From positions 186,001 through 250,000 of the forward strand of contig CM065886.1 in assembly GCA_033439255.1 (NCBI GenBank): 64,000 nt of DNA. Reading direction: 5' to 3'. The DNA comes from Hericium rajendrae. Lineage: Eukaryota > Basidiomycota > Agaricomycetes > Russulales > Hericiaceae. The notes beneath the pieces are model-generated. The model made no database searches and was not told the origin of the DNA. It saw only the letters and a program-made list of their open reading frames with translations. Position numbers and translations under genes: made by a program. Shown here piece by piece: positions 9,304 through 55,331 of the stretch. The stretch's first letter is position 1. Every line of letters starts with the position of its first letter.

Positions 9304-9363
9304 GTACGATAAAGTCTTTTGCAACTAACACGCAGGAGAGGATCACTCTGTTCCTGCCCCGCC

Positions 9364-16018: not shown

Positions 16019-16080
16019 TGATGAGAGATCTAGAATGACGTATGTCGTCGTGAGCGCCTCGTCTTGTCGCTGCTGACCTG

Positions 16081-16090
16081 TTTATATAGG
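16081..16090 (-). promoter_or_regulatory. TATA-type box upstream of the 15.2-kb gene
   Basis: On the minus strand the bases read CCTATATAAA, about 63-72 bp upstream of the ATG at 16018. Position and sequence suit a core promoter for that gene; this is a motif match only. Confidence 0.45.
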
Positions 16091-17144
16091 TTCTCGCGGC
16101 TGGCGCCAGTGATCTGTGGCCAAGCAGGAAAAGAAGGGCGTCCTTCGAAGCTCGGCACACCAGGCGCCACTATATGATCAAAGCGTAAGTCTCTGCTGCA
16201 GGTAGTGCAAGTAGCCATTGGTATGAATCCTCGCCACGTCGGCAATTCGCGTTTGTAGGAGCTAACCACGGACCGGTTGGTGACCGGTGACTCCCTACAG
16301 AGCCGCTATCCTCGCAATCGGGAATCATGAAAGCGCGTATTAAACTGGTATCGATGAGTTTCGATCTTGTGCGCCACATATTCAAGAAGGGTGTCAATAA
16401 AGTTGAATGACGCCCCGTCATTCAATGGGAAGACGAGGTGTGCCATCACGAAGAACTTGAGATGAGGCGTCTTCGGGCTCCAGAATTGAGCCCCAATCTG
16501 GCGCCAGTTACTTCGAAACAGCGTACTGCATTATGTAGTACCTATGAAACAATAAAAAGGATACATAGCACTCTAGGATGTCGATGTAAGGCAAACCATG
16601 GACTCGAGACCAGCTTGAGACGCGTGCTTGGCTTTCGGCCTGAGATCTTAGATTTTAGATCTCATCAAAGATCTGAGCGGGCACACGGCTCAGCCGCACG
16701 GTCGTTCCAGCTTGACTGGACTCAACCATCGTCGTTTCGTTTCCTTTGACTTGCCAGATGCCCCTTCTTGTCCCTTGAATGACCACCATGTGCGAGTCAA
16801 GAACCCTTCCCAAGAGACCAATGTAGCAATCATCATAGCGAGCTAACGTCTAGCAATCACAAGTGCTTGTTTCGCGTGTTGTCGTCGACTCTTAGTTCAG
16901 CACACCTACCTGCCCCCCAAACCTCCTTTACTGGGCGAGTGTTTTCACACCGGTACAAGTACGTCTTTCGGATTCTTCGTAATTGGAACGCGCTACTGAG
17001 GATGCTTGATGACCACTCGGCGTTCGTCTCCTTCCAGCTCCCAGACAGTTCGCAGCTCGGCTGCTCTCAGACACGTACACCAACTCGGGCACGAGTCATT
17101 CCATTACCCCGCACGGACATCTATGGACTCGGAGCTGCAGTATT
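16091..17144. other. Intergenic region between divergent genes, about 1.05 kb
   Basis: No convincing coding frame. A minus-strand frame at 16030-16269 could look like an upstream exon of the 15.2-kb gene, but its frame does not join to it. Nothing else is recognised. Confidence 0.35.
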
Positions 17145-20100
17145 ATTCGTCCCTATGAAGCCTTGCTACAGCCTCTCCCGCCTCCACCTCCGATTTCGAC
17201 CCTGAACAGCCCCGCTCTCTCCAATGTAACTCACAAGCCTGCCTTTGTCGTCAACAGATTGCAATCGACTGCGAAAATCTTCGAAGCAGTGCGACACTTC
17301 ACTGCTGCCTTGCTCAACTCTCGCAGAGAACGAATGATGCCACCGGATTATCCTTCGCACCCTGCCAAGTACATTTTCGCCTGAGAGCAGCTGCATCATG
17401 TTGACCGGTGTCTAGTAGTCTTGATGAGTATGTAAAGCACTTCGTCATGGACAGGATCGCCAATCTTTTCTCTCAACTACAATCCAATTACATATCCCAA
17501 GTGATCACCGGGTCGAACTCACCTCATAGCAATTGGAAGATATTAGAAAGCTCGTCAGCGATTATATGCGGTGCGCCACACTGGATCGTCAGAGCGAATT
17601 CATCTGATCTTGCCTTAGGACTGCACTGTTTTACTTTCCACGCCCCGCGGGCTCACCTTTCAGCTCGCGCCTTGCGGTCACCAGCCATTGTCCTTTGCGT
17701 ATGTCTCTTCTCATCGGATATTATCTGCTTGCCAGTAACTATGTGTTACTCAGCCTCCATATTTTTACCGACAAGTCGTCGAGCCCGAGACACACACAGA
17801 ACTTATCTCTTCGTTTTTGTACACCTTAGAGACAGGCTACAAGACATTCATCTTATTCACCGATATGCAGCAACTGACCATCTTCCAGAGAATGGATGAT
17901 CCCAGTGCGCCTCGCACAAAACCCAAAGCTACACATCGAACGATCAACATCAGGGGTGATCCATACCGGCTTTGCATCATCATCGCCTCTCTTTTGCATG
18001 ACGGACTTCCTCGATCCAAATTTCCTATAAATCTTTCATTCACCGTCGATGATAGTGGCGAGTACGAGTCCCTTGCTGGACCAGCTAGGGACGATAGCTC
18101 CGATATTCGTTCCGATAAGGTGGTCTTCGCAGCTTGCCATCGCCATTCCGACTTTGACTTCGTCTCCATCATCTGCGGCGGTGATCTCCGTAGAGCTCGT
18201 CAATTCATGCAACGGAAGGCATATATAGCTCGGCACGTCGAGTTAGCGTTCGCTCGGGTCGGCGACGTCATCGCAGGCATTACAAACGGATTTTTCGAAA
18301 ACAACGTGCTTCTCACACCGTACTACAGTCCCGACCCCCTTCCCGAAACTACGATGGACCACATACGTCACCATCAGCGTCTCCGGGATGCCATCAGTAA
18401 ATTCTTGCTTGAATCTTCCTCGTTCTCCGTCAAGTTGCTAGACGATTTGACTGGACATGCACGTGCCGTCATGTGCCGGATATATCGCTGCAGGATTTCG
18501 GTAGAGCTTCCAGGAAAGTTGCCGGCCAAGTCGAGCCAACTCTGTGTCAAGTTGTTCGACGACCGGTTCTTATCATTCCAAGCCCCCGACTCAAACCGGG
18601 ATCTAACGCGACTTGCCCCAGAAGACAACTGGATGCCATTCGACGGTACTCTTGTAATGTATCTATTCACAGTTCATCCTTCCCAGCGGCCATTCAATCT
18701 ACGGAATATTGATGGAGTACATCCCAGCCCGTTCACTGATGGGAGGTATTGGTCGGGCTCTTAGTATACCGCAACAGACACAACTGGTGCGTTCTTGATT
18801 CACGAGACTCTTGGTCCCGGAGTCTGATTTTGTTGGTGAAGGTCGAGAGCGTGCGCCATGCCGTTCGAGTATTGCAATATTCCGATGTATCTCAGCACGA
18901 CTGGCATCTAGGACAGATGCTATGCCACTTCAAGAACGACAACAGCGTTCACGGAGTGCTTATCGACTTCTCGCAGACCAGGCAGAGCTATCGCGAAGGC
19001 GAGACTCGGATGGAAGATGATGCGGGAAATGCATTGAGGATTCTGTGTATGGGGAGAGGCAACGCCGGTTCGGAATCTGTGAGCATTACATAATGCAATC
19101 CGCGCGTCCAATGCGGGCACGTTTTCGTTCTGAAGCTCGTTCTGCATATGCTGCTGTTATGTACACGGGAGGAACCTTGGAACGGGTCCATAGAGTGATA
19201 ATCAGTATATAAAGGCTATTACAAAGGATAACGAGACTCCGAAGCCAATGCCATGGTGAATTTCGGACAGTGCTCTGGTTTGAGGATGGTCCGTAAACCA
19301 TGTTACCGATTATCAGAGCGTAAATCTTACCATTTGACACTTGGAACTCATTCTCACTTTTGACTTCCTTGTTGTGGAGGTCTGCGGCAGATAAAAGAAT
19401 CTTCATCACACGAGAAAAGTGGAGATCGGGGTGCTTGCGGTGCATATGCTCTCCTTGCTGCTCTTGACCCATTTTGAGGTGCCACTCACTCTTATCTAGG
19501 CTCTGTAAATGAAGGATTATCTCATGGACACTCCTTGCTTTCGGTTTCCGGCCTCAGGGAGGTATTTCGGCGGGGCAGCGTCCTCGAGACGCGTCAACGC
19601 CTGCAAACCGACGCGTTGATTAGATCACGTGCACCGCGTTCCCCCCAATCTCATATCTACGGAACCGCAACGGATTTGGACAGGATCAACTCTTAGAAAG
19701 GGGTTTTGGGCCTTCCTGAGTACGGTCTCCGTCGATTTTTTCCCGGATTCGACCCACAATTGCCAGATCTACCCCGATCTGGTGGCAGATACAAGCCTGT
19801 ACAGAAGCCTGTACGGACCATACGAGAGTTTACTTAAAAAATCTCACGGAGACCTTATTTAGCTTGCATATATCTACGAATTCACGCTTCAATGGAAGGG
19901 CAGGGTGCAGCTGATCAGGAGTTATGAAAAGTGTCCCGTTTTCTGAGCCCAGAGGCGTTCACAAAAAGTGTGCCAAATTAGGAAGGCGTTGCCTCTCCCC
20001 ACTGTGTAACAAGCGGACAGGGCTTGATCCCGAGCTTGTTTGGTCCAATTGGGCCCCTCGAGAGCATTGGGACTTCAGCAGTATGATCGTCAATGATCAT

Positions 20101-20154: not shown

Positions 20155-20459
20155 GGCCCACCTATGTTTATTTAGTTGAGCGGTACGCAAGCGATACATA
20201 TGATGTCGTGGAGCCATCTTCCTCCTCGTGAGCATCTCAAAGACACCATCCGCCAGACCCACATATACCTCTATAACATTACCTTGCTTGTCAAGGTGTC
20301 TCGCACCCTCGTAATTATTAGCGCCCCGACTCACATCGTCAACAGTAACAAACAAAGGTTCGGCGCCTCGAGCGGTACACTCAATCTTCTCATGTACCGG
20401 AATTCATTTTCTCATATCTAGAGATCGTTTTTTATGCTTCTCATACGACTTGTTTCTGT
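20155..20459. other. Downstream region of paralogue B
   Basis: Roughly 300 bp resembling the 3' flanks of paralogues C and E (a stretch like CTCGTGAGCATCTCAAAGAC versus CCTGTGAGCAGCTTAAAGAC). It ends where the LTR element begins. No gene was seen. Confidence 0.4.
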
Positions 20460-20944
20460 AACGGATGGTTTATCAGTTACTACTATAGTCTTCTACTTTC
20501 TTACTCTTTTCTACCTGGCTTACTTTTCGAGTTTTGCAGAGTTTCCTTATTAGGATAGCTGAGTTTGAATCATGTACTTAGAGCGGATTTCCTTATTGGG
20601 AATAAGGATCTATTTTGCCAACTCACCACCATCTGTCTGCTTTTGTCTCAGTCTCTGCTTGTTCTCCTTATATCTGAAAGGTTCTCTTGGGATCCAACCC
20701 TCAAAGGAAGGTGTGTGGCCCCCAATACCCTCATCAGGAGGTCTATATCTGCTGCTGGCCCTCAGAGGAGGTGCCAGCTCATCACTCATCTGCTTGGCTG
20801 CAGGACTGAGGCATCCTCGGTTCTGTTAGCTCTAGCTCGTGGACTCTCTCTAGGAGGTCTACGACACCTTTATACCCTCCTCACTCGCTCGCCTACCTTG
20901 GACTTCCCGGACAGTAGCGGCTCGACCTCTATCGTCCGTTACAA
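20460..20944. repeat. Left long terminal repeat
   Basis: About 485 bp, starting TGTAACGG and ending CCGTTACA. It matches the right repeat without visible differences over their shared length. Open frames of 85 and 155 residues inside it occur in both copies and are probably not genes. Confidence 0.75.
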
Positions 20945-23900: not shown

Positions 23901-25130
23901 TCGAACGCTTTTGAATCCCTATACAAGCTCTGGGGTATTCTATGGCTCGGGTAGTCATCCAGCAAGTCACTTGGCGATTTAGGCCTCTTTTGGCTCAGCC
24001 ATATCTCGGCATCCAGACCACAAATCAACAAGCGGATTTTTGCATCTCCTCCGCATTGTTCACACCTCCAAAACGCGCCCTCACACGTCCTAATCCGACA
24101 TGACCTTGCTCCGCAAATCCCTTCTCTCTCCATCCTTATCTCCTTCAACATCCTAGGGATGGCATCCATCCCTTTCTGCTTATCTGCAACCCTCGCTGCT
24201 CTTACGCTCTGTGATCCTCATTCAATCCTGTCTACTCTCAACTCAAATCTCCTGCACCAGTCTGGGGGGGCTCGCACGCCTCACTCATTGTCCGTCCTCG
24301 ACCCCACCATCCACCCATATTTGGACTTCCATCTAGTTTCTGATGCGGAGTCTGGGGGGGCTTGTGTGACTAGGGCCTGTGGCACAGTTTTCAGGATTTT
24401 GGGACCTTAGAGGTATGGAGGTTTCGCTCCCCCTGTCCATCTACTGGGAGTACCTGCACAGAGCTAGCGATGGGGGGCTATAGGGATGTATAGGAGGGAG
24501 GCTGGAGCCTTGCAGAGCACAGGATCCAGCATTCCTTTGGAGTCAGATCCTTAGGGCTGAGAGCAGCTGGGAGCTGCATAGGAGCTTGTGAGATCCTGCC
24601 TTCCTGCTGTGAGCAGACTGGAGGAGTGGCTGGATGCCTCAGGCCTCAGCCATCCTGAGACCAGCTTGGAGACCTAGGAGCTGAAGAGATCCTGTCTCTT
24701 TGCTGAGAGCAGTCTGGAGTCTAGGTGGCTGAGATAGCCTGTGGCCTTGGCTTAGCATCTTTCATCCTTCCCTTTTGGATGTGAAGTGCTGCAGCTGGAG
24801 GACTTGTAGCTTGGCTAGGGTTGGAGGCTGCTCTGTTAAGAGAGCTTGGTGCAGTTAAGTCTGGAGCTGCAGAGCTTCACATGCAGATTTTCTCTTCAAT
24901 TTTCTTCTCTAATTTTTCACTCTAATTTTTCACTCTAATTTTTCACTCTAATTTTTCACTTTTATCTTGTTTCTACTTTCTCTCTAGATTTTTCTCTGAT
25001 TTTTCTACTTTAACTCTTTTTCTTCTTTTCTAATTTTGTCTTGTTCCCTTTCTGCTTTGTTCATTCTCAGCTTTGCACTACTCACTTTGTGTTCAGGAGT
25101 CTCAAAGACCAAGAAAGTGGGGGGGCTCTG

Positions 25131-25592
25131 TAACGGATGGTTTATCAGTTACTACTATAGTCTTCTACTTTCTTACTCTTTTCTACCTGGCTTACTTTTC
25201 GAGTTTTGCAGAGTTTCCTTATTAGGATAGCTGAGTTTGAATCATGTACTTAGAGCGGATTTCCTTATTGGGAATAAGGATCTATTTTGCCAACTCACCA
25301 CCATCTGTCTGCTTTTGTCTCAGTCTCTGCTTGTTCTCCTTATATCTGAAAGGTTCTCTTGGGATCCAACCCTCAAAGGAAGGTGTGTGGCCCCCAATAC
25401 CCTCATCAGGAGGTCTATATCTGCTGCTGGCCCTCAGAGGAGGTGCCAGCTCATCACTCATCTGCTTGGCTGCAGGACTGAGGCATCCTCGGTTCTGTTA
25501 GCTCTAGCTCGTGGACTCTCTCTAGGAGGTCTACGACACCTTTATACCCTCCTCACTCGCTCGCCTACCTTGGACTTCCCGGACAGTAGCGG
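25131..25592. repeat. Right long terminal repeat
   Basis: About 462 bp matching the left repeat from its TGTAACGG start. It is preceded by a G-rich purine tract. Sequence to the right of 25592 is unrelated to the element. Confidence 0.75.
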
Positions 25593-26941
25593 GTCAAAAA
25601 TTGAGGAGCCAAACATTGTGACTAGTTACGGCACCGGTAATTTGAGTCACTTCTTCTCATTTGTCCGATTGTCGACAGTCGGCTCGCAATACTTACTATA
25701 TTAACTCGCAAGAACAGGCAAGAAACTGGGGCATGTTACTGGTGTCTCTGGATTCTGACAGATTATTACAGGTCCTCTGGCAAATCCTCTGGCAGGAATT
25801 GCTGTCCCTGTGAATCCGAAGACCTGCCGCTCGACTCGAAGACAACTCAAGCACGAGTCAAGTACAGTTCAACAAGCGTATAATTCGCCAGCACGCAGGG
25901 CACAGTCAATGGCACTACAATATGTCTTCAAAATCCAAGTAACCCACTGGTGAGTTTGGAAGAAGTAGACTAACGGCTCCTTGAGCAAGCATCAGCTTCA
26001 TTGCGTGCGGTCGCCGCGTTCAAGCGCCGGTGCAACATTGCATAGGCGGAACACTCGCAGGACGGTTTCCGGCAGGTTCTCAAGGTGTGATTCACAAGCC
26101 CGCATCTGCAACGTGCAGTGCTTCTTCTCGGCCTCCCATATCGACGACGACCTGGACGACAGGGTCAGCGTCAAAGCCCTCAGCGTCTATGGCAACCCGT
26201 ACTGCCGCGGTTCCACAGCAAAACGGGGCGGAAACGGGATAAGGGTGTGCGCGAGCCTGGATGCGAGAAGTAGTCGCTGCTCACCGAGTGCATGCGGCCA
26301 GCAGCAAAGGGGAGGGTCGGCGGCACAGGGCGTCCGACAGGGTCAGCGAGCCTTCGTGCTTGGGCATGCGGGCGAGGGCGTAGTGACGACGTGAGGCTTC
26401 TGCCGGTCCTGCTGTTCGCTCGGGATTCACATGCCTGCGAGATCATGCACATGAGTTGCGCAAGCGAGGCGTTCCCAAGCACCGCGCGGGCAATTGCAAG
26501 CTTGCGATTTAGATTTTTATCGGCCCGTGGTTGACTCGAAGACAAGAAACAGCAATTGGGGAACCCACGCGGGCGCGCGGTGTTCGAGCTTGCCATACAT
26601 ATGACACAACTACTCGTGCACCTTACTTGTCTAGCATTCCGTCATCCAGTAAGTAGCTTCATGTGTATGATGAGATTGAATTTTTTTCGGAGTTATTTGT
26701 AATAAGACCACAGACATATCGTACCCGAACTTTCATTAATAGTCTCTAGGCTAACTCTAGCACTCTTAAGAACCATTTAGCACGAGGGAAATCACTCTAT
26801 AACAATTTGCCTTCGTCAAGACAAGCAAGGTTTATGCCGACGCAGTCGGCGCTTCCCTAGTGAGGAGTAGCTCGGACAACTGCTTCACCGCCGACAGCAG
26901 CCGCCATGAACACATGAGCTCGGAACTGAGCTACTGTATAC
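25593..26941. other. Intergenic region, about 1.35 kb, partly GC-rich
   Basis: Open frames on both strands at 26.0-26.6 kb (137 residues plus, 138 residues minus) are rich in Arg, Ser and Gly without motifs and overlap each other. I see no supported gene. Confidence 0.35.
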
Positions 26942-27592
26942 TAGGGCTCTGTGTAGAACTCCCCACGGAGTTTCTCACGCGTTTTAAACAAAACATGTTT
27001 AAAACATGGTGTTTTAAACAGAGTTTCTAACTACCACAGTGTAATACGTAAAGATGCAATCAAATCTGTTCTGCTCCACCCAAGGATCGTCAGATGTGTC
27101 TCCGTGTGTTGAGGATATGCCCGACTCAGAAAGAAGGACATCAGAGTGGCCGATACAGACTTTGACGGCAGCATCGCTGATCTATGAATGGCCTTGCTTT
27201 CGCATCGCCGGCACTGAGGACAATATTGAGGCCTGAGGATCGGCAGTCAGAAATCAAGAAACAATTCCTGATTTGTGGCGCACGCTCTCAGCCTCACCAG
27301 TTGGCCGCTCCGTGACTTTAAATCACCATACACCCCTCCCAATGCACTGGATGATTACCACCGGGATCGCGCATGAGCCTGCATGAGCTCGAGGGCCACC
27401 GCCGTGTCGATGTAGTCAATGCCGCACTCCCCAAGCCTCCCCCGATGGTTCCCCGAGTCTCTTACGTAATACACCGAGCAACGTTTCTAACACCTCAAAA
27501 TATGGTACCCTCGGCAAATAGGTGTTTATAACGTGTTTATAACGCCTTGTTAGAAACTGAGTTTCAAACAAACACTTCTACACAGAGCCCTA
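26942..27592. mobile_element. hAT-type MITE
   Basis: A 651-bp unit whose ends read TAGGGCTCTGTGTAGAA inward from both sides. It is flanked by an exact 8-bp direct repeat CTGTATAC (26934-26941 and 27593-27600). The 8-bp duplication fits the hAT preference nTnnnnAn, and the TAGGG-type terminus is common in hAT elements. Subterminal stretches rich in GTTTTAAAC/GTTTATAAC occur near both ends. No transposase is encoded, so it is a non-autonomous deletion derivative or MITE. Confidence 0.85.
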
Positions 27593-27600
27593 CTGTATAC

Positions 27601-29256
27601 AGCACTGCGCATGAGACACGCCATCGTCGCCATGCCATCGGATCAACAGGTCCGAGGGCACGCGCGGGCACGGTTGAGCCATACGGTCGTCCACTTCCAC
27701 ATTCACGGTCATCGTTGTATCCTCGTAGTCCATCAGCAAAACTGCAAGAGTACGGCCAGGGATTAAGACACCTTATAAGGTCGGCCAGGTATGCCAGGTA
27801 TATCAGGCAATGAAGTTCTGGCAAGACCTTTTCGCCGATGGATTTTCTGACCAGATGCCGCCAGGATGGTACGCGTGATAAGGCCTGGTGGCACCTGGTG
27901 GACCTTACAAGGTCTTGCCAGGTGCTCCGACATTATCATGGGTTTTCATAGCAAACAAGCCCCAACCTGTATACTTGATGTCGGTACCATAATACTTGGA
28001 CAGATCACACTTTTCCGTGCACCATGTTCAAAGTGATACACAAATTAAATTGAATATTCACAGTGTCTAGTCTAGCTACAACGACACAAGCCACGATACA
28101 CGGCCATTACGCACCAGAAGAGCTTTCCCCAGTAATAAATATCTTTCGTCGGGCCATGGCCGCATCCTCATGAAAAGCCGTGCGAGCGAAGCGAAACTTA
28201 GTACGATGATGACGACGTACCGGGCGCGAGGGCAATACACCCAAGTATGAAACGAACAAGTAAGCGAGGGCGTCATGAAACAGACAAGGAGGCAAATATA
28301 TATTAGACATACGGATGAGTGGTGTGCCGCGCGGCGCAGTCGTAGTTACTTGCGGTCATGCACTATTCGGCGGTAGAAGCCGCCTGGGGCGAGCTATATT
28401 CTGGCAACAGCCCCACAGTCGTCAACAAGCACCCAATCATAGATGTCAATAAGCAGAGATTCAACGACAGAACAAAGGCAGATGTATGCGCTTACTTCAA
28501 GCAATCCGACAACGGTGGCGCGCAATCGCACATAAGCTCTGTGGGTCTGTAATGGAACTCCAATTATATATGGATCATCTGAAAGGGCGCTTGAGGGGGG
28601 AGAAGAGGAACAAAGATGGGGGCATTAGCGGGAGAGTGGGGACATGATGGAGGGAGGAAGGAAGGACGAGATGACTTCGACCCTGAAAACGACGCGACAT
28701 AATGTGTTTGCGAATGTTGACGCGTTTCGATCACGGGGATGTAGATTTGAACTGACGTCATCCTTGAAGTCCATCTCCGACCCAGCCGACAATCCATTGG
28801 ACCTTCAACAAATCTTCAGCAAGTTACCCACACGGCCAGCAGCCAGACAGCCAAACATGGCGCATAACCGACTGAAGTGTCGATCCCGCAAACGCACTTG
28901 ATGAGTACAGCGCGAGCGCGGCCAGGGCAACAACGCCTCGGACGGACGCGATTGGTGTCTGTCGCAAACACGAAACGAGACGGATACGCCTCTCACGCAT
29001 GGTCTACGTGACGGAAAATGTCGTCATCCACACGACGCTCCGGGCGATGTTGGTCCACAGAGCAAGCACGTACTGTACAATATGCCTCATAGCGCCACCT
29101 GACGGTCACTGCGAAGCTGAGGATCGCGTGCACGTGTACGGCGAGTGCAGCACGGTGGACGGAGATGCAGACTATGCAGAGCCATAGGAAGAGGATGTGG
29201 GAGGGAGCGCATACAGTGCACGGTTCGGGAGGAAAGGAAGAGAAAGTGCACGTGCA
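27601..29256. other. Intergenic region, about 1.65 kb
   Basis: No convincing gene on either strand. Short motifs around CCTTATAAGGT/ACCTTACAAGGT and GCCAGGT recur at 27.77-27.92 kb and again near 29.67 kb, but I cannot define an element. Short hydrophobic frames near 28.1-28.3 kb (minus) have no family match. Confidence 0.35.
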
Positions 29257-29553
29257 TCATGAGGTTTTCGAATAAGCAGCCTTAGTAGGGTGTGCAGGAG
29301 TGACGCGGGGATGCACCCAACGATAGAGATATCCGTAAAGGTTGGGGATTACAGTGAGCGTGACAATAGTGACGGCGACGGCGAGGGAGACAAGTTGGAA
29401 GGCGAGGGCGAGAGGTCTGAAGGCCAGACCGATGGAAGCCAAGGTGAGCATGGGAGAGACGAGGAGGATCATGTTGAAGAACGCGCACCTCGGATAGCGA
29501 CGAGGACCTCGATCCAATCGAGAAGAGATCCAGCGGCAGTGAAGAGTTGACAT
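29257..29553 (-). CDS. Possible small membrane protein
   Basis: An open frame of 98 residues starting MSTLHCRWISSRLDRG with two hydrophobic segments (MILLVSPMLTLASIGLAF; LVSLAVAVTIVTLTVIPNL), followed by YGYLYRWVHPRVTP. An upstream ATG with a GTGAGT donor exists, but the spliced frame does not lead into this reading. No family is recognised. It could be a real small gene or a chance hydrophobic frame. Confidence 0.3.
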   Translation of the reverse strand: MSTLHCRWISSRLDRGPRRYPRCAFFNMILLVSPMLTLASIGLAFRPLALAFQLVSLAVAVTIVTLTVIPNLYGYLYRWVHPRVTPAHPTKAAYSKTS

Positions 29554-29878
29554 CGATGACGACCTGCTGGAAGAGGCGGGCTTCGCGCCATTGTTAGCTA
29601 GAACTCACCGTGAATGACATACGTATTCGGGCAAGACAATATAAGGTGCTTTGCATGATGAGATGGACCTTATAAGTCCTCACCAGATCGCTGAGCTCCT
29701 CGTCGCAGCCATACAAGCAAGGCCTCGACTGGGAAGAGCCCAGATAAGAGTAAGAGCAAACTCGCTGATGTCATACCAAGCCACGTAAGCGTAAACCGTC
29801 TGGCACCCGGACCGCTCATCCCGGCCATCCGCCACCAGGTGCCGCCGGGGCAATTCTTAACTTTGCACTTTTGCTGAT

Positions 29879-30027
29879 GTCTCGGATCCAGCCGTTTCGG
29901 AGTTCCAAAAACCCCTGCACACCCCCACTCCTCAACGTCTGGTGAGTTTCGCGCAGAGGGGGGAGGATCACGCCCGGCGTGACTCGGCCCGGTTGCAGCG
30001 CCTGCCATTTGAGGGAGCACCGTTACA
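29879..30027 (+). repeat. Left 149-bp terminal inverted repeat of the helicase/DUF6589 element
   Basis: It begins GTCTCGGATCCAGCCG and ends GCACCGTTACA. Reverse-complemented, it matches 36328-36476 with two differences. It lies 105 bp upstream of the helicase ATG, so it probably includes promoter sequence. Confidence 0.9.
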
Positions 30028-30132
30028 TTGACAGCACTGTACTACGTAAGACATAATCGCGACGCGTTCTCGACTCTGACGGCTTGTCGACGCGCTCTGT
30101 ATATCGACTTTTGACGCGTCTTTAACATTCAA

Positions 30133-33100
30133 ATGGCTCCCACCTTTTCCCATCTTTCTGAGTCACCCGAGAAACAAAATGAGTACTCGAAGTCCCTGCT
30201 CGAAAGTGCTCGCAAAGAGGCTGCCACGTCCGACAGAAAGTACTCTTCGGAGACGACTCGGCAGGCGATTAAAGATGCATTCAAGCATATCCCCTCCCCA
30301 AACATCCATATCGTCCCTTATGAGTGGCAGCTAGATGTTGCAGAGGCTCTACTACTCGGATTGGACTGCTCTCTCGTTGCAGGCACAGGAGCTGGCAAGA
30401 CATTGCCTTTCATCATGCCCCTCCTCGCAGATCCATCCAAGCACAAGAAGACTATCATCATATCCCCTCTAGATGAGCTCGAGCACGACCAGGTTTGTGC
30501 TCATCAGCTCCCGAACCTGTCTACATGTACTGACACAGATGCGCACCCAGGCAAGGCGCTTTCGAGATTTGGAATTAACCCCAATTGTAATTAATGGGGA
30601 TGAATGGCGGCGGCGAGGACAGAGAATACGTCAGGTGAGACACGCTGCGCTATCATCTGTTGCAGTGAGACTGACCTGTACCCATGCACGACAGGACCTC
30701 GTGCAAAATCAGCACCAGGTGCTCCTTACTTCGCCCGAGATGTGCCTCGATCATGAGGAATTCTCAAAGCTTTTGCGCACGCCGGAGTTCACGAAGGATG
30801 TTGCGTCTTTAATTATTGATGAAGCGCATTGTATCTCGCAGTGGGGGGATAAGTTCAGACAGAAATTCGCAGAGTTGGGCAGGCTCAGGTCATACCTGCC
30901 GCTCCATGTTCCCGTCCTCGCCACGTCGGCGACGCTACCACCTACGATATTGAAAGAGGTTCATGTGACACTGAACTTGGAGATCAAGTCAACATACCTC
31001 CTGAACCTCGGTAATGATCGGCCTAATATCACGCCGCACGTTCATCTGATGAGCGGCGCGGCAAAGGATCTTGATTCTCTCAATTTCGTGGTCGAAGGAG
31101 TGACTGATGAAGAGCAGTTAGAGCGTACAATGGTATTCTGCAATACTCGAGATCTCACTTACCGGGCTTGCCAACATCTTCGCAGCAAAGTTCCCAGCTC
31201 ACTCCGAAAGCGAATCGCGTTCTTTCATTCCTGTCGGAGTAGACGAGCGAAGAAAAGGGTAATGCGGGATTATCGAAAGGGAAGGATTATGATCCTGTGC
31301 ACAACCGAAGCCGCGGGAATGGTGAGTGACAATTAATCGGTGTCGATACTCTGTACTTATGTACCGCATTTCAGGGTGCAGATATCCCGGGGATCACGCG
31401 CATTGTCCAATATATGGTCCCGTCGTCTCTGTCCGTGTGGACACAGCGGGCCGGGCGTGCGGGGCGCGCGGGTGAGGATGCAAACGCGTTCCCGCTAGTC
31501 GAGCCATCTGTGTTCCAAAAGAAAGGTGTAGGCGGCAAAGGCGGCAAAGCGAAGATGAAGAAGGAAGAACCGAAATGTGAGCCCAAGGACGATGAAGTCG
31601 ATGTCCCTGCAGATGTCACGCAAGATGATGAGGCCGAGTTTAAGAAGAAATTGGAAGATGGTCTGCGAGAATGGATCGAAACGACGGGATGCCGCCGTGC
31701 GATTGCAGACCTTTACTTCAATAACCCGAAGAGGGGTAAGTTATCTTATCTTTGACTTTCGATTCCTTGACATGTGATTGAATCATCTCGCAGCAAGCAC
31801 TGGCGGCGAGGCTCCCACGCCGTCAAGGAGATGCTGCAATAATTGTCTTCATCGGGACACCATCGACCAGAAGCCGAACATAATGTCAGAAACGCACGAG
31901 CCTATTAGAACTGACAAAGGTAAAGTGCACTCTGAGTATAGATTCGACATACAATCCTTCTGACTCGCTCATAGATCACCATGCGAATGCCGAGGACGAC
32001 TTAGATGCGAACGCCGAGCACAACTTAGATGCGAACGCCGAGCACGATGCGAACGCCGAGGAAGGTGATGCGAACACCCAGAATGACAACGTGAACGCGC
32101 AGGGCGACGACGACGTGAACGCCCAGGACGACGACGACGAAAACGTCCGGGACAACGAACTCGAGCCGTCTACTATCCCGAACGAGAACGGCAAGCGTCC
32201 AATGACTGAAAAGCTCCCCGGTGAACGGAGGGGCGATAGGCTCCAGCGGTGTAAAGATGCGCTAACGCGATGGCGGGACGCGTGCTGGGAGGAGCAATAT
32301 GGGCTGTGTGCGTGGGACCCTGACGTTCTCTTACCAGACGTGATTCTCAGAAAACTGGCCAAGGTCGCACGCATTCGGTCGGTCGAAGACATGGCGACAT
32401 ACTTGCCCGAGCCCTGGGCTTTTGCTAATGTACATGGTGCTGAGGTCCTCGACATCGTTTCGCAAGTGGATCGGGAATTTCGTCGGGAAGTTGAGGAGCA
32501 GAGGGAGGTGCAGAAAGCCAAGAAGCGGAAGGAGACCGAAGAGAAGGCAGCGCGGCGCGAGGAGAAACGCAGGGCAGAGCGAGCGATGAAAACTGCCAGA
32601 CGAGAATGGGAGAAGGAGATCGAACGGCAGAGAGTGCAACACGCGATGGCCAATTCCCGTTCGTCCCAGCCTCCCGCTGCCGCCGCCACCATGCCATCTT
32701 CGAGCGTCACTCAATACGCAGCTTTTTCTGACCCATTCGCGGCATACACAATGCCCGCCTATGCCATTCCACTGTCTGCGGGTCCAAATCCACCACCAGA
32801 GCACGCTGAAAACAGTTTGCATGCTGGACCTTCGCAAGACCGCAAGCCAACCGCCTCGCAGCCAGCTGGTCTTCCAGCCGCTTATTCTGCAGGTGGGAAC
32901 CTGCTGTCAGCCCCGATGTCTATCTCATCGCGCTCCCATATGCCGGGATCATGCATGTCTCATCATCCGCACGTACCGCACGCTACCAATCAGCACGCGC
33001 CGCACGCTACCGATCCCCCCCAGGTGTCGCACGGTGACAACTCTCTGCACACATCGTATGGCGATGATGCTGCGCATGCATCTCATTCTGCCCATCCCTC

Positions 33101-33485
33101 GCACACATCCCACACGTCGTACCCGTGGTATGCTGCCCAGCCCTTGTACGCGGTGTACGCTGCTCAACCCTCGTACCCCTCCTATGCCCCTCCATTCTCG
33201 TACCTGTCGTATGCGGCCCCATCTTCGTACCCTTCGTACACTACTGAATACTCGCACACGTCCCATACTCCACACACTCACACATCAGGTACTGCTTTAC
33301 CCTCGCGCATGTCACACACGGCGCAGGCGTCACACGCTGCTCATCTCTTGCACGTTTCGGTTCCAGCCCCACCCTTGCACGAGCCGTACGCTGTCCATAC
33401 CACCCATGCGCCACAGGCGCATCACCTGCCTTGGGACCAGCCTGAGCCAGGCCATCCAATATATCATCGCTCAAGTCAGACGTAG
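30133..33485 (+). CDS. RecQ-like DNA helicase with long disordered tail
   Basis: An intact six-exon gene; introns at 30493-30538, 30635-30694, 31322-31374, 31736-31793 and 31920-31974 all keep the frame. Visible motifs are Walker A (AGTGAGKTLPF), motif II IIDEAHCISQWG, motif III ATSATLPP, the second lobe (TMVFCNTRD; LCTTEAAGMGADIPG) and motif VI QRAGRAGR. A Cys cluster follows (RCCNNC), as in the RecQ zinc region. After it come Asp/Asn-rich repeats (units like DANAE), a conserved segment (CKDALTRWRDACWEEQYG), a charged coiled coil (EKAARREEKRRAERAMK) and a tail of about 250 residues very rich in His, Ser, Tyr and Pro. It would unwind DNA using ATP. Its place inside the inverted repeats suggests a role in element movement. 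Confidence 0.85.
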
Positions 33486-33572
33486 TATTAGGTATCTTCG
33501 TTTCTTCAGCATTGCCTACCAATCTATGCTAAATCTTTAGACAGCTTACATCTCATTTGTACTGTATCTATC

Positions 33573-36202
33573 TCAGTCCGATTTCGGCTCGAACACATCT
33601 TCCCAATCTTCCTCTGTCGCCTTCTCATGAACGCGGTTCTGCCACCATCTCGAAATCAATTTGTTCGATGCAACAATTCTCGCCCCCTTTGCAATATAAT
33701 CGGGAAATTCATCTCCTGCACTGCGGAGACGGCGACCTTTCTTGTGCTCATGTGCATGAGCACGAGCATATGACTCCGATAAATGTGCGACGTCTTCTTC
33801 TTTTGCTGGAGTCGTATGCCGCTTATAGCGACTGAATGGATTAAATTCGGCCTCTACGTGGTCTTTCACTGATCGCAGGAGAGGTATAGCTGCAGAAATC
33901 CTGCTGATATAATCCCAAGAGGCATTTGGACCGACTGCGGTGAATGTGGCCTGTCAATTACCATCAATCCTGCGGCTGCGACATGATATAAGAAGAGTAC
34001 GTGCCTTAATGTCTCGCACATTGTGTTCTTGTAACAAATCAATAGGGCAGAAACCATTTCGTCGTCCACTCAGGTTCCCTAACCAGCAGTATCGCTTCAC
34101 GAATGCCTTTGTGTCAGGTGACCATTCTTTATGGAGTGCTTGCAGCAACTCCAGAATTTCCCCGGCGTAGTTCCCATTTCGCCCACCTGCAAAGCGAAAG
34201 AGAAGCCGAGGAAGCATGTTCTCCATCCTGCCAACATCACCCACTTTGATCGCATCATCGAGCTCATAGTAATCGAGTACGTCTCGATTGAATTGGACCA
34301 TCTGCCGGCGAAGTTCATCTTGGTCCTGATCGGGAAGGCACTTCATTGACCGCAGGGCTGCGGTGGATGCATGTTCGGACACGATCTGCTCTGCTATGGC
34401 AAGTAGTTCCGCAGGATTTTTACTTCGCAGATCAGCTAATTTGTTGACTTTGCCTACTTTCTTCCAGAGGTCACGGAAGTGCGCTTCGCCAATGTGATAT
34501 AAGGCTTCTTCAAGGTTGTGGTGGAATGGCCCTTCGTTGCATTGCTGCTGAGCCCTCTTCGATCTAAGAGGTTGAATGCATGGACAAGACCAAGTGAAGC
34601 CCGGGTGCCATAATACTGAGAGTGAAGCGACGTTCCGAACGCCATCTGTAGATGGAACCAGCCGAACTGAGGCACTAACCAGTCCATACGATCGTATGAA
34701 TTGAAGTCCTCAGCGCGGAAATTGGACAAGCCACGAAGGCGCGATACCGTGAGCTGGTCGCCGATCCACACAATAACGCGGTCAAGGCCGGTACGTTTCA
34801 GCTCCTCCGGTGATCCGAGCTTGAGCTGACGAAAAAACTCCTGGATTAACTTGTCATTTCCCTCGTAGCTCGCCTCCTCCATATGCTTCGTGTTTAACAT
34901 GTATTGTCTGGTCCGGTGATCTGGCCCACACGGCAACTCCTCGATAGGGGGCGGTGGATCTAATCGAGTATCTTTGCGGCCTTTGTACGTCCGGAAGCCG
35001 AACTCCTTTGCTTCGAGGAGGAACCGGAGCACACGATGGACCGCTCTGGAGTGCAGATTTTTTGCGGCATTCTTCTCTAGCTGAAGCACATCAAGGCCCG
35101 AAATTGGTGTCTCCCTGCCTCTGGCACGCGCATCCTTCAGCTTCGCATTGTCGGGTCGTGGTGCATCCGGATCCTTGATAATAAAGACTGTCCCGGCAGT
35201 GCCGCTATCAAAATGGCTATGATGCCCGATCCGCTGCTCTGAGGTGGTGAATCCAATGTTGAGATTATCATGGGTCAAGGAGAACAAGTATCTTTTCACA
35301 TCCTCGATAAGTGCTTCGCGAGACTTCTCAGAGAGTACGTCAATCGCGTCGTAGGTCCATTTTTGGCTCATTGTCAAGCCAAATGCATGGAGTGTGTCAA
35401 ACGCCTTTGCAGACATCCCGCAGCTCCGCAAGTATATCGAAAGCAGCTTTTGAAGCTTGTTTCGGTGATGTGAGCGCGTGAATGATGCGTGGCACATCAT
35501 ATAAAGAACGGCCTGTCCTTTTTCTTAGCGGGATACTGCGAGAGCAAGGTAATCCAGGCTTACCTTCTCCTGATCCTTACATGTATTAACCTTCTGTTGT
35601 TTCGTAGATGCTGCACGCGAGAACAGCATCCTTACGGTCGGCGCTCGAGCTTGAGTGACTTCGTTGAGGTCCTCGAAGCCCACCTCAAGGAAGGCATCTG
35701 ACGACAAAGCCTCTCGTGGTGAATGCAGGTCTGTTGCAAGATTCTCCATCTCATGATCAATCTGCTCCCCAATGCACTCGAATGCCCATTCCGTGAGTGC
35801 TGCATGTGCTTCCTTTGTCTTGATACCGCGGTTGTGCTCACGCGGAGGCCTATACCATCGACGAATGATGCCCGGCAGTTCATCGCTGAGCATGAGCGAG
35901 CTCCTCGCGAACTTTGCCTTCCCGTCAGAGACAAGCGTGGGATCACGCCAACTAAGTGCATCTAGGAGAAGAGGGAGATCCAGTCCTCGTTGCTCCATGT
36001 AGGCAAGCACATCCTGAACACGTGCAGCCGTGTCTTGCGAGGCTTCAAGCTCGCTCCTCAGCCGCCGTGTACGCTGCACGTATGGTGATGGGTTGCTGGC
36101 AGTTTCCTCTGCGAAGTCGAACGGGATCGGATTGGGAATATCAGGATCCATGTCGTCAACATCAGAGACTTGAACATTGTCAGGTTCGAAATCCTCGGGC
36201 AT
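33573..36202 (-). CDS. DUF6589 family protein (candidate transposase partner)
   Basis: Multi-exon gene starting MPEDFEPDNVQVSD. An acidic N-terminus is followed by conserved segments, then the core of DUF6589: VIVWIGDQLTVSRLRGL, DRMDWLVPQFGWFHLQM and LHSQYYGT..GLVHAFNLL. After these the family sequence continues in another frame (FHHNLEEALYHIGEAHFRDL) through an apparent one-base loss near 34.53 kb, so this copy may be inactive, or the base may be a sequence error. Further exons give LPRLLFRFAGGRNGNYAGEI and the C-terminal ASWDYISRISAAIPLLRSVK, ending at 33573. DUF6589 is widespread in Agaricomycetes with no established activity that I know of. The invariant Asp in GDQLT and the His/Tyr motifs could belong to a nuclease fold; that is a guess. 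Confidence 0.75.
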
Positions 36203-36327
36203 CGTTATATGTATTCAGAAAGATCTGAACAGAAAGTACAGCGAACAGTGACTTGAGATGCAACTTACAGGTGCAGTGCGACAGGTATGGAACGAGCGTA
36301 AGCGACATTACGAATAGCGTACAGTAC

Positions 36328-36476
36328 TGTAACGGCGCTCCCTCAAATGGCAGGTGCTGCAACCGGGCCGAGTCACGCCGGGCGTGATCCTCCCCCCTCT
36401 GCGCGAAACTCACCAGACGTTGAGGAGTGGGGGTGTGCAGGGGTTTTTGGAACTCCGAAACGGCTGGATCCGAGAC
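36328..36476 (-). repeat. Right 149-bp terminal inverted repeat of the helicase/DUF6589 element
   Basis: It is the inverted partner of 29879-30027, ending GGATCCGAGAC at 36476. It lies 125 bp upstream of the DUF6589 ATG at 36202. Confidence 0.9.
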
Positions 36477-36942
36477 TAGTATCCTCGTTTCGTTTTGACC
36501 TTGAACGCCATTGTGCTTTTCATCCCTCGAGCCCTTGGCTCTAAACTCACTCGTCAGTGCTGCACCCCTTGCTTCTTTGGCTTTATACTAGGTACTAGGC
36601 ATCGTCGAATCACTTTCAATTTTCTTGTCGTACGTGCGCTTTTCTCGAGGCACTGTGGTTCAACTTGCACGTGTTGGATGGGCGTGATAGCCTCAAGTGA
36701 CAAGTTGGTCTTAAGGCGAGGTTTCTCTATGTAAGTACCACGCGTATACGTCGCCTGCTCTGTCTGACATTAGCATGCGTGGCTGTTCCAAGGACGCTCT
36801 GACTTAGGGGTGCTTGTCTAGTCGTCTAGGCTCTTTGCACACAATCACTCTGTCGTTCAATCCTCCGCTGTACTTAGACATCTACTTCCACCTGAACTCG
36901 ATCTATCCCTTTTCCACGCACAGGTAGTTGCGGGGTTGCGTC
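36477..36942. other. Upstream region of paralogue C
   Basis: About 465 bp sharing blocks with the upstream region of paralogue E (for example CACGCGTATAC and CTGTTCCAAGGACGC near 36.74-36.80 kb and 46.75-46.81 kb) and with 49.44-49.63 kb (GACCTTGAACG). It has no gene of its own. Confidence 0.5.
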
Positions 36943-39121
36943 ATGATGCGCCCTTACGAAGCCTTTCTACAACCCCTTCCTCGTCCACCTCCGACTTCGA
37001 CCCTGAGAAACCCGACTTTCCCTGAAACAACTTGCCAGCCCCTCTTTGACATCAGGAGATTGAATTCCACTGTGGAAATCTTCAAGATAGTGCACCTGTT
37101 CACCGCTGCCTTGCGCAACTCTCGTAGAGAACGAGTGACGGTACCAGTCCCTTCGCGCTCTGTCCAGTACGTTCTCTATGATAGCAGCTGCAAAATATTG
37201 ATCGATATTTAGCAATCTCAACGATTATGTGAAGACTTTCATCATGGACAGGATAGCCACTTTCTTCTCTCAATTACAACCCAAGTATATATCCCAAGCG
37301 ATCACCGTCTCGGGTTCGCCTCACACTGATCACCAGATATTAGAAAGCATATCAACAATCAGATGCGGTGGGACACCCTGAAGTTTACAATGGAAATCGA
37401 CTAATATTACCTCAGGGTTGCTTTGTTTTGCTTTTCAGGCCCCGCGGGCTGGCCTTTTCATCCACGACTTGCGGTCACCGATCGTAGTCATTTGCGTGCG
37501 TTGCTTTCTATCAAATATCTCCTGCTTGTCAGTAATCATGTGCTGTTAGTCTCCTTCTTTCTATCGACAGGTCAGCGAACCCGAGGACCACGTAGGAGTT
37601 GTCTCGTCATTCCTTGCGACATTGGAGACAGAATATGCGACATGTGTCATGTTCACCGATCTGCAGAAACTGACTATCCTCAGGCGAACAGATGCTCCCA
37701 GTGTGTATAGCAATCCCCAAGTGGTCCACCGAACGCTTGATATCGAGGGTGACCTGTTTCGGCTCAGCATTGTCATCGCCGCTCATCTTTATGATGGAAT
37801 TCCCAAAGCGAGATTTCCTATAAATCTCTGTCCCACCATCGATGACAGCGGCGAGTTTGAGTCTCTTGCTGGACCGGCAGTGTACCATCAGCCCGGCATT
37901 CCATCCGATTACGAGGTCTTCGCAAGGTGCCATCGTCATTCAGATTTCGACATCGTCTCTATCCTCCGCGGCTACGACCTCCCTAAGGGTTGTCAGTTCT
38001 TGCGATGGAAAGCTTATATGGCTCAGACCGTCGATCCGACGTTCGCTCGGATAGGCGATGTCATCACGGGCGTTACGCATGGGTTCTTCGCCGCGAATGT
38101 GCCCTACAGGCCGTTTTACAGTCCAGATCCTCTTCCCGAAATAACGATGGACCACATCCAGCTCCATCGGCGTCCCCGCGATGCCATCAGTCCCTCTCTC
38201 CTCGAATCATCTTCGTTCTCTGTCATGTTGCTGGAAGACCTGACTACGCCAGGTCGCGTCACGATGTGCCGGACCTATCGATGCAGCGTTTCCATAGACC
38301 GCGAGGATGGATCGCCGCCGGCCGTGTCAAGTGAATTCTGCATCAAGCTTTTCGACGACCGATTCTTGTCATTTCAATGGCGAGACGAAGACGATGATCT
38401 GACGCAACGGAACCCAGAAGACCAAATGGACGCCATCCGGCGATTCTGGGACACTGCGGAAGACTGCGTCAAACGCGAGGAGGCGGCGTACAGGAAACTG
38501 AGCGTTATGCAGGGCTCTCTCATTCCTCATTATTATGGCGCCCATAAAGTATGTCTTACTTCTGCCAATATTGAGTGTCCTCACGTGTTTCTTGACAGTT
38601 CATTCTTCCCAACAAACATATGGTATATGGAATTTTAATGGAATACATCCATGGGCATTCTCTGAGAGGTGGTGTCTGCCGCACGCTCAGTGAACCTCAA
38701 CAAATACAACTGGTGCGTTATGTATTCACAGGATCACAAAGTCCAGATGCTGAGCATTTCGGTCAAGGTCGAGAGCGTGCGCCATGCCGTTCGGGTGTTG
38801 CAATATTCCGACGTGTCTCAACACGATTGGCATCCAGGACAGATTCTATGCTACCGCAAGGATGACGGAACCGTCCACGGAGTTCTCATCGACTTCTCGC
38901 AGACCAGGCAGAGCTATCGCGAGGGAGAGACTCGGATGGACGATGATGCGGCAGACGCATTAATGGTTCTATTTGACAGTCGTACAGGGCTTGATCGAGA
39001 CCTCGTTTGGTCCCATTGGGCTGCTCGAGAGCCTTGGGACTCTATGCAGTGTCTCATCAGAGGACATATCTACTCCGTGCCTGACCCGTTGAAGTTTGTA
39101 TTGACTTGTATTACTCTTTGA
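36943..39121 (+). CDS. Kinase-like protein, paralogue C
   Basis: It starts MMRPYEAFLQPLPRPPP. Exon 1 is followed by short introns near 37159-37204 and 37372-37418 and another before VSEPEDHVGVVSSFL. The long exon runs through FTDLQKLTILRR, FRLSIVIAAHLYDGI, FLRWKAYMAQTVDPTF, THGFFAANVPYRPFYSPDPL, CIKLFDDRF and KREEAAYRKLSVMQGSLIP. Two further introns precede the kinase-like end: ILMEYIHGHSLRGG, the catalytic-loop-like QHDWHPGQIL and VLIDFSQTRQSYREGE, then TGLDRDLVWSHW and the end FVLTCITL. All exons join without stops, so the gene looks intact. It is closest to paralogue E, with long identical runs in the middle exon. The function is unknown; it may be an atypical kinase or pseudokinase. Confidence 0.75.
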
Positions 39122-39446
39122 GGCCTCGAACCGAGGCTCAATACACGCGGTACATGTGGTGCATTGAAACCAAATTGAAACCATCCCACTTCCTGTGAGC
39201 AGCTTAAAGACGTCGTCTGCCCGACCCACGCAGCTCAACACGAGCAGCAGCTCACGGGTCACCAAATCCCGTTAGGAATACATCCATTCATGAGTGAGAT
39301 TTGAGCTTGGAGTCTAATTGGGTATCAGTGAACATGACAATACAGGAACTACGTCGATATAAAACTTGAAAGAGAAGGTATTATCAATAGAATACGAACT
39401 GGGATACGAACCCAAATGCGGCAGCGTTCAAAAGCCCTGTTTGGTC

Positions 39447-40545
39447 CTATTGCAGGAGTCCAAGCAGGGATTGACACTGCAGACGCGGGTCCCACTGTAA
39501 CGTGGCGGACTGTGCGCACCACTTCCCGCCCGTCTGCTCCGCATCCGTTCGCACCATTCGTCTCGACGACACGGCAGATCTCGACCAGTCACCGCCGCGC
39601 CATCGGGTCGCCAGCGAACCGCATATCCGCACGGGCATGCCAGACCAGCGACTTGGCGCATGTCTTGAGATGGCGGGCGTCGAGCGGCGGCCCGAGATGT
39701 GGCGAGACGAAGAGGAGCAGCAAATGCAGCGTGCGGCAGTGCGTAATGGAGCGCGGGTGGAAGGCGAGCATGGAGACGCATGCGCGCATGATGTATTGCA
39801 GGTGGAAGGCGAGCATAGAGACGCATGCGTGCATGATGTATTGCGGGATGACGTCGACGAAGAAGAGCGCGCCGAAGAACGCTGAGGATCTGCGTGCGCA
39901 TGTCTTCTAGCAGCAATGTGCAGAGTGGTGTGATGCCATTGCCCAGATTGAGCACGTCGAGATCGCTCTGCGGAAGGATTGTGAGATGGATCAGCAGCGA
40001 TAAAGGGCGACACGTTCCTTCCTGTGCCAGTAGGCAGCAAAAGCGTCTTCGCGAGCTGCATGCTGCTGCGGGAGCTCGTTGTGGACTTCTGCCTGCAGAT
40101 CCCACGACCGCTGTAAAAGCTCCGCCTGGACGTCGTGCACAAGCAGCGCTACGCTCCAGCATACCGCGATCCTCAAAGTTCCGGCGAAGAAAACCAGCTT
40201 CGCAAGGGCCTTGATTTCGGGCGCGTCCTCGTCCAGATCGATCAGCAGGCCACATAGTGGAGGCGTAGAGCGCTTCGGCGTGGATCTGGGATGGATGCAG
40301 CGTCCGGGACGGTGCGCGACGCATGCGGAAGAAGTGCGCCTGAAGCACGGGGTCGAGAGGTACATGTGGGATCATGTACATTGTCTCGGCGTCCAGGCAT
40401 CTGCAGCTTTTGCGAGGCGATGGCGTTGCACGGATATGGGATCTGGCAGAAGGCGTAGATGTGCCTGCAGCCTTCAAGTGGGCCATCGACAGAGACTGAC
40501 TGGGTGTAATGGATAGATAATATTGATGGGCTCGGAAATCGTGCG
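39447..40545 (-). pseudogene. Decayed copy of the 50-kb gene
   Basis: Matches the intact gene at 49942-51237 from SITPSLSVSVAHLKAAG down to the terminal QCQSLLGLLQ. The 5' third is missing, the frame shifts after LHPSQIHAEAL, and a 45-bp direct duplication (39753-39842) adds 15 codons. It stands convergent to paralogue C, just as the intact copy stands convergent to paralogue E. Confidence 0.8.
39753..39842. repeat. Two tandem copies of a 45-bp unit
   Basis: Units 39753-39797 and 39798-39842 differ at only three positions by eye. The homologous stretch near 50.25 kb has one unit. The length is a multiple of three, so the duplication alone would not break the frame. Confidence 0.85.
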
Positions 40546-41064
40546 CGGCTTATATAATTCATTGTCCCGCATTCTCTTCTCGCTTCTCGCTTCTCTCAAC
40601 AATGCGCTTGATTTCACCGCCCTCCATCTCTTCGTCTTCATTGATTGGGAATCTTGAATATGTGAGTATGGTTCTCTTGAGTGAACTGCTGCGGGAAAGG
40701 AATGAATGCTCTTGTTGTCAACTGTCTCATCTCGCTGACCTTTACTTATAGACCAACGAGTGTGGCCACCAGAAAGCAATATGCGCATTCGGAGATGTCG
40801 ATGTCCATGCATTAGTGGCGTGCCGCGCCGCTCTTGTCTATGTTGCCTCCATTCCGTCTTTTTGGCCTCCTAATCAGGCGCCACGGCCGGTTATGACACC
40901 AACCTCACGCCATGGCGGCTGAAGTCACCGTGTGTCATCCATATCAAGACTCATTATCTCCAGCAGGTATTCTGGGTGATTCCATATGCGCACTGATCCG
41001 TCTAAAAAAGAACAACCAGGAGGCTCGACGTTCAAAGTATCTGGCCACAGGATCCGACTACATT
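40546..41064. other. Intergenic region, about 520 bp
   Basis: No supported gene. A pyrimidine-rich stretch (CTTCTCGCTTCTCGCTTCTC) lies near 40.57 kb. Confidence 0.35.
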
Positions 41065-41667
41065 CTACGCCTCTCGACCCTTCACCCGAGAAGTACGTTC
41101 AGATCCTCCTGAGCAACAATGAAAAGCTACAAGAGGAATCATCCATACAGTGGCGTATGACGACGGCACACTAATGGCTTTCTCTGCGATGGGCTTATCG
41201 CAGAATTTACCATTTCCGTGCCATCGCGGCAGACCCAGACCGCAGGCTTTATTTTCGAGACCCCACTCCATATACAGTCAATACGTAGCATATGCCAGCG
41301 ACGCCGGAGTTTTGTCTTTGGGCCCGTATGTTTCAAGCTGCCCCTCGGGTAGTCGGATGAGCTTGGCTGACTCGAGGCTGTCCACGACGTCGCGAAGCCA
41401 ATATTGCACGTTCTCCGACCAGCTTCTGAAGAACTCGTAACGAAGCATGTCGGCGGAGAGGAGATGCCGGAGGATGGTATGCAGCGTGGTGTCCTTGTGC
41501 ACCGAGGCCGCCTTAATCTCAACCACACGTCCGTACGCCGGCTTGTACTTCTCGACAGTAACCTCCTCGCAATCGAAGAGTGGGAACTCGGTAGGCCGGA
41601 CCACGTTGAGAACAACCAAGCAAGAGTCTGTCGGTATGTCGGACGCAAGGCAGTCTTTCACTAGCAC
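41065..41667 (-). pseudogene. Truncated copy of the 15.2-kb gene
   Basis: Nearly the same as 15203-16018 over YKPAYGRVVEIKAASVHKDT, LLSADMLRYEFFRSWSEN and YGPKDKTPASLAYA. A small deletion after AYATY shifts the frame into the LENKACGLGLPRWHGNGKF segment, and the first 80-90 residues are absent. The closeness of the two suggests a fairly recent duplication. Confidence 0.8.
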
Positions 41668-46152: not shown

Positions 46153-46928
46153 GACGGGTTATGACGGGCATGCAGGATGGCTACTACCCTTAATGTTCTC
46201 ATTTGTCACCTTACACGGATAAGAACCAATACATCATATAGTGTATGCAATTTACTAGCCTTTGGCCCACGGCTAGTTCGTCAACTGCTCCAATGTTCCA
46301 CATTTCGCGACGCTGGTCAAGCATGTCAGGCCGTTTTTCGAATATTTTTCATTAACCATTTAAGCGCTACTACCTTTCGCGAGAACCTCCTTTAGGTGAG
46401 GGTCAACACTACGTCTGAGGATCATGATCATCGTCGGACATGGCAGGTGCCTACCAGCTATCCCGTTCCATCGGATCGCGAATCTGTCCGAGTGCATGGT
46501 ACCGGTTTAGCCACACGGTCGTTCATTGGAGTGGCTGGCACATCCATCGTGGTTTCGTCTTGAGCTTTCAAGTGGTTCTTTGCGTTGTATCATTCTATCC
46601 CTGGGTCCTTTGTCAATGTCAGACAATCACTCGCAAGCGCCACGCCCCTGCTGCGCTAACACCGACATCTATGCCAAGCATTGTCGCATCGCTTGTTCTA
46701 TGTGCGTTTCGTTTCGTCGGAGCACTGTTGGACAATGTCTATGTACGCATCACGCGTATACATCGCATGTTCTGTCTGACATGGGCATGTGTGACTGTTC
46801 CAAGGACGCGCTGATGGCTGCTCGTCTCCTTGCGCACAAACAGTCTGTCGTTCGGTTGTCCGCTGCCCTCAGCCACGTACATCCACCTGAACTCGATTCA
46901 TTCTTCTGTGTCGCACAAGAGCTGCGTC
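46153..46928. other. Intergenic region between paralogues D and E
   Basis: About 775 bp. The right part shares blocks with the upstream regions of C and the 49.4-kb flank. Open frames here (for example 46440-46814) show no motif. Confidence 0.4.
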
Positions 46929-49070: not shown

Positions 49071-49199
49071 GACCATGAAGTAGTGTAAATTGACAAGCCA
49101 GGCCAACTCAGTGTAGTTCGTATATTGTGTCTCGAAAACATCCTACTTCCTGTGAGCAGCTGAAAAGCGCCGCCTGCCAGACTGACGCAGTTTTTAGCG

Positions 49200-55032: not shown

Positions 55033-55331
55033 GATTATTTTATTCTCATGTGTTTAGTTTCGATGCAGCGCTGTGTGAAATCTCGTTCTCGTTCGGATGC
55101 TAAAGGTGTGTGCTCCCAATGCTATAGCTCAGTGAATGACTATTCACGATCATCATTTCCAAACAGGAATCGTCTTCTACGAACGATCCTCAACTATAAG
55201 ATGATTGTGACATTCCATCATGGATGCATCCCAATGATGGTCCGCAAATGCTACCATGTCCTTCATCGCCAGCATCGAACACGAAAGGCCGAATGCATGC
55301 ATGTGATGAAATGCTATCGCTTCGGTCTTCG

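Follow-up and report, generated by a model that had tools for sequence, protein, structure and literature searches.

A putative helicase-carrying DNA transposon with a DUF6589 gene between 149-bp inverted repeats in Hericium rajendrae

Two convergent genes are found between a pair of long inverted repeats in the genome of Hericium rajendrae, and the locus raises the question whether this unit is a mobile element or an ordinary piece of host DNA. One gene encodes a RecQ-like helicase and the other a protein of the DUF6589 family (PF20231). The unit lies in a window of 64,000 nucleotides, by which we mean the whole stretch of DNA that was analysed (assembly GCA_033439255.1, contig CM065886.1, positions 186,001 to 250,000, forward strand). 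All coordinates below are those of the window.

The repeat finder, applied to 28000-38500, returned a sole inverted pair, with arms of 149 nt at 29879-30027 (+ strand) and 36328-36476 (- strand) that are 6300 nt apart. Comparison of the arms shows mismatches at 30000 and 30019 only, so that 147/149 positions are identical. In a self-comparison of the whole window (E up to 1e-3) no inverted pair but this one exceeds 90% identity; its E value is about 1e-69, far beyond chance. Sequences outside the arms show no likeness beyond that of shuffled sequences (score reached by 262/300 shuffles), nor do the sequences inside the arms when taken alone (96/300); one gapped alignment of the whole repeats can be extended to 30049/36308. 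No third copy of the repeat is found in the window, where the remaining matches are of 11-33 bp with E of at least 1, and there is likewise no second DNA copy of the repeat or of the genes within it. An Rfam scan of 27000-40000, a tRNA scan of the whole window and a search of viral contigs with the repeat end gave no match.

The helicase gene occupies 30133-33485 on the + strand. Its six exons (30133-30492, 30539-30634, 30695-31321, 31375-31735, 31794-31919 and 31975-33485) are separated by introns that were set by eye at GT..AG signals, and the spliced reading frame is open over 1026 aa, from the ATG at 30133 to the stop at 33483-33485. The motifs GTGAGKT, DEAH, SAT, AAGMG and QRAGRAGR are all present in the spliced protein. 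Pfam identifies DEAD (E=7.4e-25) and Helicase_C (E=1.7e-18) within residues 1-523. Against PDB sequences, the best of 60 listed among 160 distinct matches are RecQ (4tmu, 3.9e-31), BLM (1.9e-30) and WRN (7e-30), and because of these matches the label RecQ-like is right for this SF2 helicase. The Pfam scan reported no RecQ zinc-binding domain in the protein; by eye, stretches of CRR and CCNNC can be made out. The C-terminal part is of low complexity. Short direct repeats are observed in the last exon, at 31987-32150 and 32965-33012. No relative of the helicase exon was found in viral contigs by a search with exact short-peptide seeds, which distant relatives would escape.

The DUF6589 gene occupies 33573-36202 on the - strand. 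It starts with an ATG at 36202 and stops at 33573-33575. Exon 1 (36202-35564), which has no Pfam match above the cut-off, is followed by an intron at 35563-35513 and by exon 2 from 35512 to 34005. The last intron, proposed at 34004-33951 before a last exon at 33950-33573, requires a GC donor (GC-AG), and the gene model is to be taken with caution at this point. PF20231 matches two separate open reading frames, 34454-35500 with E=1.7e-48 and 33954-34382 with E=1.6e-44, which are in different frames and have no convincing intron between them. When the gene is read through with an X at the joint, the profile is matched in a single stretch from position 4 to 410 of 410 with 427.1 bits, and at E<=1 PF20231 is the sole Pfam match of this reading. 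Removal of a frame-compatible GT..AG stretch of 38 nt as an intron gave 409.5 bits, 17.6 bits worse; this score is for the 38-nt variant, and visual inspection also showed a 41-nt variant that uses the same donor. The bridging segment thus looks coding, with a read-through profile score higher than that of the intron version, and we therefore place a frame change near 34550 (approximately 34541-34560). Reading-frame analysis suggests that the gene carries this frame change, or that there is a sequencing or assembly error at that point. If DUF6589 is the transposase, its gene is probably dead in the present copy.

The solved structures and sequence collections say little about the function of DUF6589. 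Its comparison with PDB sequences gave two matches at E<=10, the better at 0.62, thus no real match among solved structures. Single-sequence AlphaFold models of two contiguous pieces of the window have a mean pLDDT of 33.3 for the first part and 62.4 for the second, all-helical part, and are unusable as models; a fold search with the second gave 122 matches at E<=10, of which none reaches E<=0.001. By eye, the acidic motifs GDQLT and, further along the protein, NYAGEI and DLLQEH would be the first candidates for the D, D, E residues of an RNase H-like core. Exact short-peptide seeds from the DUF6589 pieces found no relative in viral, prokaryotic genome and plasmid collections, a search that distant relatives would escape.

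The arrangement of the two genes is compact. The repeats enclose exactly two recognised genes, both spliced, which fill the interior. The helicase ATG is 105 bp inside the left arm, the DUF6589 ATG is 125 bp inside the right arm, and 87 bp lie between the two stops. On these points the preliminary description of the locus, made from the sequence alone, was accurate: the 149-bp repeats with 147/149 identical positions around two genes are borne out by the repeat finder and the arm comparison, the RecQ-like helicase by its motifs, Pfam domains and RecQ, BLM and WRN matches, the DUF6589 protein by the PF20231 matches, the presence of just two convergent genes by the gene models, and all three distances are exact. 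The frame change in DUF6589 and the absence of a target-site duplication had escaped it. It had also proposed that each repeat serves as a promoter. Judged from the distance of 105-125 bp, the repeats may have such a role. A bacterial promoter scan of the left repeat with its upstream stretch gave 1 site against 0.1 in shuffles; the model is a bacterial one and this count is not meaningful in a fungus.

Directly at the repeats there is no target-site duplication (TSD) of 3-11 bp. At the lengths of AcademH duplications the two edges of this one copy agree at 3/9 and 2/10 positions. The 200-bp flanks have no exact 8-mer or 9-mer in common, and the approximate 9- and 10-mers common to them are fewer than the shuffle means. 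On the right side, the flank (36477-36688, + strand) has a relative within the window: 36479-36688 aligns with 49429-49635 at a score of 54, which was reached by 0/300 shuffles with a shuffle maximum of 27. Although the input to this alignment included the final 37 bases of the repeat, the aligned part begins 2 bp outside the right repeat end. Because the similarity stops there, the right repeat end is an insertion-like boundary with respect to an element-free stretch. To be noted, 49429-49635 lies behind a duplicated block (46738-49190) while the right flank lies before the counterpart of this block (36726-39233), and because of this opposite placement the 49429 stretch is not a strict empty site. 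On the left side, the flank has no similarity to the stretch before 49429 (score reached by 287/300 shuffles) or to the upstream stretches of two further duplicated blocks (244/300 and 205/300), and the right flank has no clear match to those two upstream stretches (14/300 and 276/300). The mismatch at the left edge would be accounted for if the original left flank had been lost, if copies had recombined with each other, or if the insertion had left no TSD. Of the comparison of empty and filled sites proposed in the preliminary description, the 49429 stretch gave a part, a boundary at the right repeat end; neither a counterpart of the left flank nor a TSD was found in the window.

A DNA transposon is the best reading of the unit because of its long, near-identical terminal inverted repeats (TIRs), the two genes that fill the interior and the boundary at one repeat end. 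TIRs are general to DDD/E DNA transposons, AcademH included. The AcademH lineage of Academ DNA transposons is reportedly that of Kojima 2020. AcademH elements encode a helicase and a transposase and are found in fungi and animals, with low copy numbers in Basidiomycota, Ascomycota and Mucoromycota (PMC10799480); their TSDs are of 9 or 10 bp and those of AcademX of 3 or 4 bp, which is tied to the encoded helicase and nuclease (PMC10045372). Fungal Academ copies have DEAD/DEAH (PF00270) and recQ_fam domains, and annotations often list them as host genes (PMC6416283); putative non-autonomous Academ elements are reported for a mushroom genome (PMC8290104). Like AcademH, the present unit carries an SF2/RecQ-type helicase, and it shares the TIRs, here of 149 bp with 147 identical. 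It differs in that the 9-10 bp TSD is absent and the DUF6589 frame is broken.

We consider it moderately likely that the 6.6 kb of 29879-36476 represent a single TIR DNA transposon copy with an AcademH-like mode of action, in which DUF6589 is the transposase and the helicase an accessory protein. Membership of AcademH is not claimed for this element, as the TSD of that lineage is absent in this copy and DUF6589 is a candidate transposase only. It is the candidate because cutting and joining of DNA would not be the work of a helicase, which is an argument by elimination and not a demonstration. In such a transposon, the DUF6589 protein, presumably a DDE/RNase H-type enzyme, would bind the 149-bp terminal repeats, cut the DNA and join it. 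The RecQ-like SF2 helicase would unwind the ends, the target or gap intermediates in transposition or repair. Putative promoters within the repeats or beside them would drive both genes inward, and the genes would end tail to tail. The present copy would presumably owe its position to an intact relative, or have been damaged once inserted. Several observations count against this explanation: no TSD is found, although repeats so nearly identical point to a young copy; no counterpart of the left flank is seen in the stretches compared; the window has no second copy; and DUF6589 has no real match among solved structures.

The preliminary description had read the unit as a self-contained DNA transposon with DUF6589 as its transposase. 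The TIR unit, the convergent genes and the insertion-like right edge agree with a transposon, and the transposase is arrived at by elimination; 'self-contained' is not supported, with the DUF6589 frame broken and no TSD. Its further statement that no described transposon class has this pair is doubtful and probably wrong in kind, since AcademH elements with helicase and transposase are published. It fails as written because helicase-bearing DNA transposons in fungi are a known kind. Helitrons, which use an HUH/Y1 protein and a helicase (PMC12730594), also have a transposon-borne helicase, whereas the present unit has long TIRs and no HUH/Rep Pfam domain at E<=1. RecQ-type helicases are numerous in a basidiomycete smut (PMC4466345); the present helicase is also RecQ-type and differs in lying in a TIR-bounded unit with DUF6589, and an exact search for a double TTAGGG repeat found none in the window.

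The alternative that survives best is a TIR transposon outside Academ, in which DUF6589 would be the transposase of a superfamily without a name and the RecQ helicase would have been acquired independently. We regard this as unlikely, with the most weight among the alternatives. The missing AcademH TSD length speaks for it, as does the literature searched, in which no paper naming DUF6589 was found, and RecQ-type helicases are described in several transposon lineages (AcademH, KolobokH and Kolobok-1_CCri), so that independent acquisition is plausible. Set against this, a fungal Academ with a recQ_fam helicase is already reported, and the simplest placing is thus Academ. A bolder proposal, to which we would give little credence, is that DUF6589 represents an undescribed eukaryotic superfamily of transposases or recombinases that inserts without a TSD and is paired with a RecQ helicase in fungi.

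It is improbable that the unit itself never moved and consists of two host-type genes between an inverted duplication or two copies of a short TIR element. The absence of a TSD, a left flank that is not continuous with the relative of the right flank, and surroundings full of duplicated stretches are all in keeping with such an origin; but the start of each gene is 105-125 bp from the inner end of a repeat, the two genes take up the interior, and the boundary on the right falls at the end of the repeat. Kolobok transposons have TTAA as target flanks, and the bases that flank the present repeats are TGAT/TAGT. A Kolobok transposon with a RecQ helicase is very improbable. In its favour, KolobokH is restricted to fungi and codes for a RecQ helicase, and the red-algal element Kolobok-1_CCri has such a helicase gene on the complementary strand (PMC9587614), which is also the arrangement here (helicase on +, DUF6589 on -). 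Against it, the KolobokH helicase lies downstream of the transposase domain and the present one on the opposite strand.

Should DUF6589 prove to be the transposase of helicase-bearing TIR elements, DUF6589 and RecQ-like genes in fungal annotations could be relabelled as transposon genes. Counts of host genes would be corrected in this way, as would some of the supposed expansions of RecQ. The 149-bp repeats would then be a defined substrate for asking what part the helicase has in the movement of DNA transposons. The useful part is the link from DUF6589 to a transposase, which we infer and do not regard as proven. DUF6589 was not found by name in the article texts searched, the accession PF20231 led only to papers with unrelated titles, and no statement on a helicase and DUF6589 pair as an element was found there. 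Openly published papers may thus not yet have named DUF6589 as a protein of transposons.

The remainder of the window contains further repeats and genes. Stretches that are 69-85% identical in DNA are 36726-39233 with 46738-49190, 17142-18645 with 36943-38442, 39392-40542 with 49887-50984, 15192-15799 with 41053-41652, and pieces of 53402-57944 with 59169-63989; they are probably gene families. Pfam was run on 20 unspliced open reading frames of 41 listed, of which three reach the cut-off (APH at 10952-11851, DUF7770 at 15206-16081 and F-box-like at 53351-54022), one has a sub-threshold match (AMP-binding, 9313-10632) and 16 have no match. A direct repeat of 469 bp, 468 identical, is observed at 20455-20923 and 25127-25595, 4.7 kb apart and without TG..CA ends; three open reading frames within or between its copies have no Pfam match, and it is a recent duplication or an unusual element. 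Another inverted repeat, 1517-1657 / 2072-2211, has no match to the 149-bp repeat. Its arms of about 140 bp are 88% identical to each other, and its ends are GGGGCTGCTCAATT; with a total length of about 0.7 kb and TAT on both sides, 1517-2211 resembles a non-autonomous TIR element flanked by a duplication of 3 bp.
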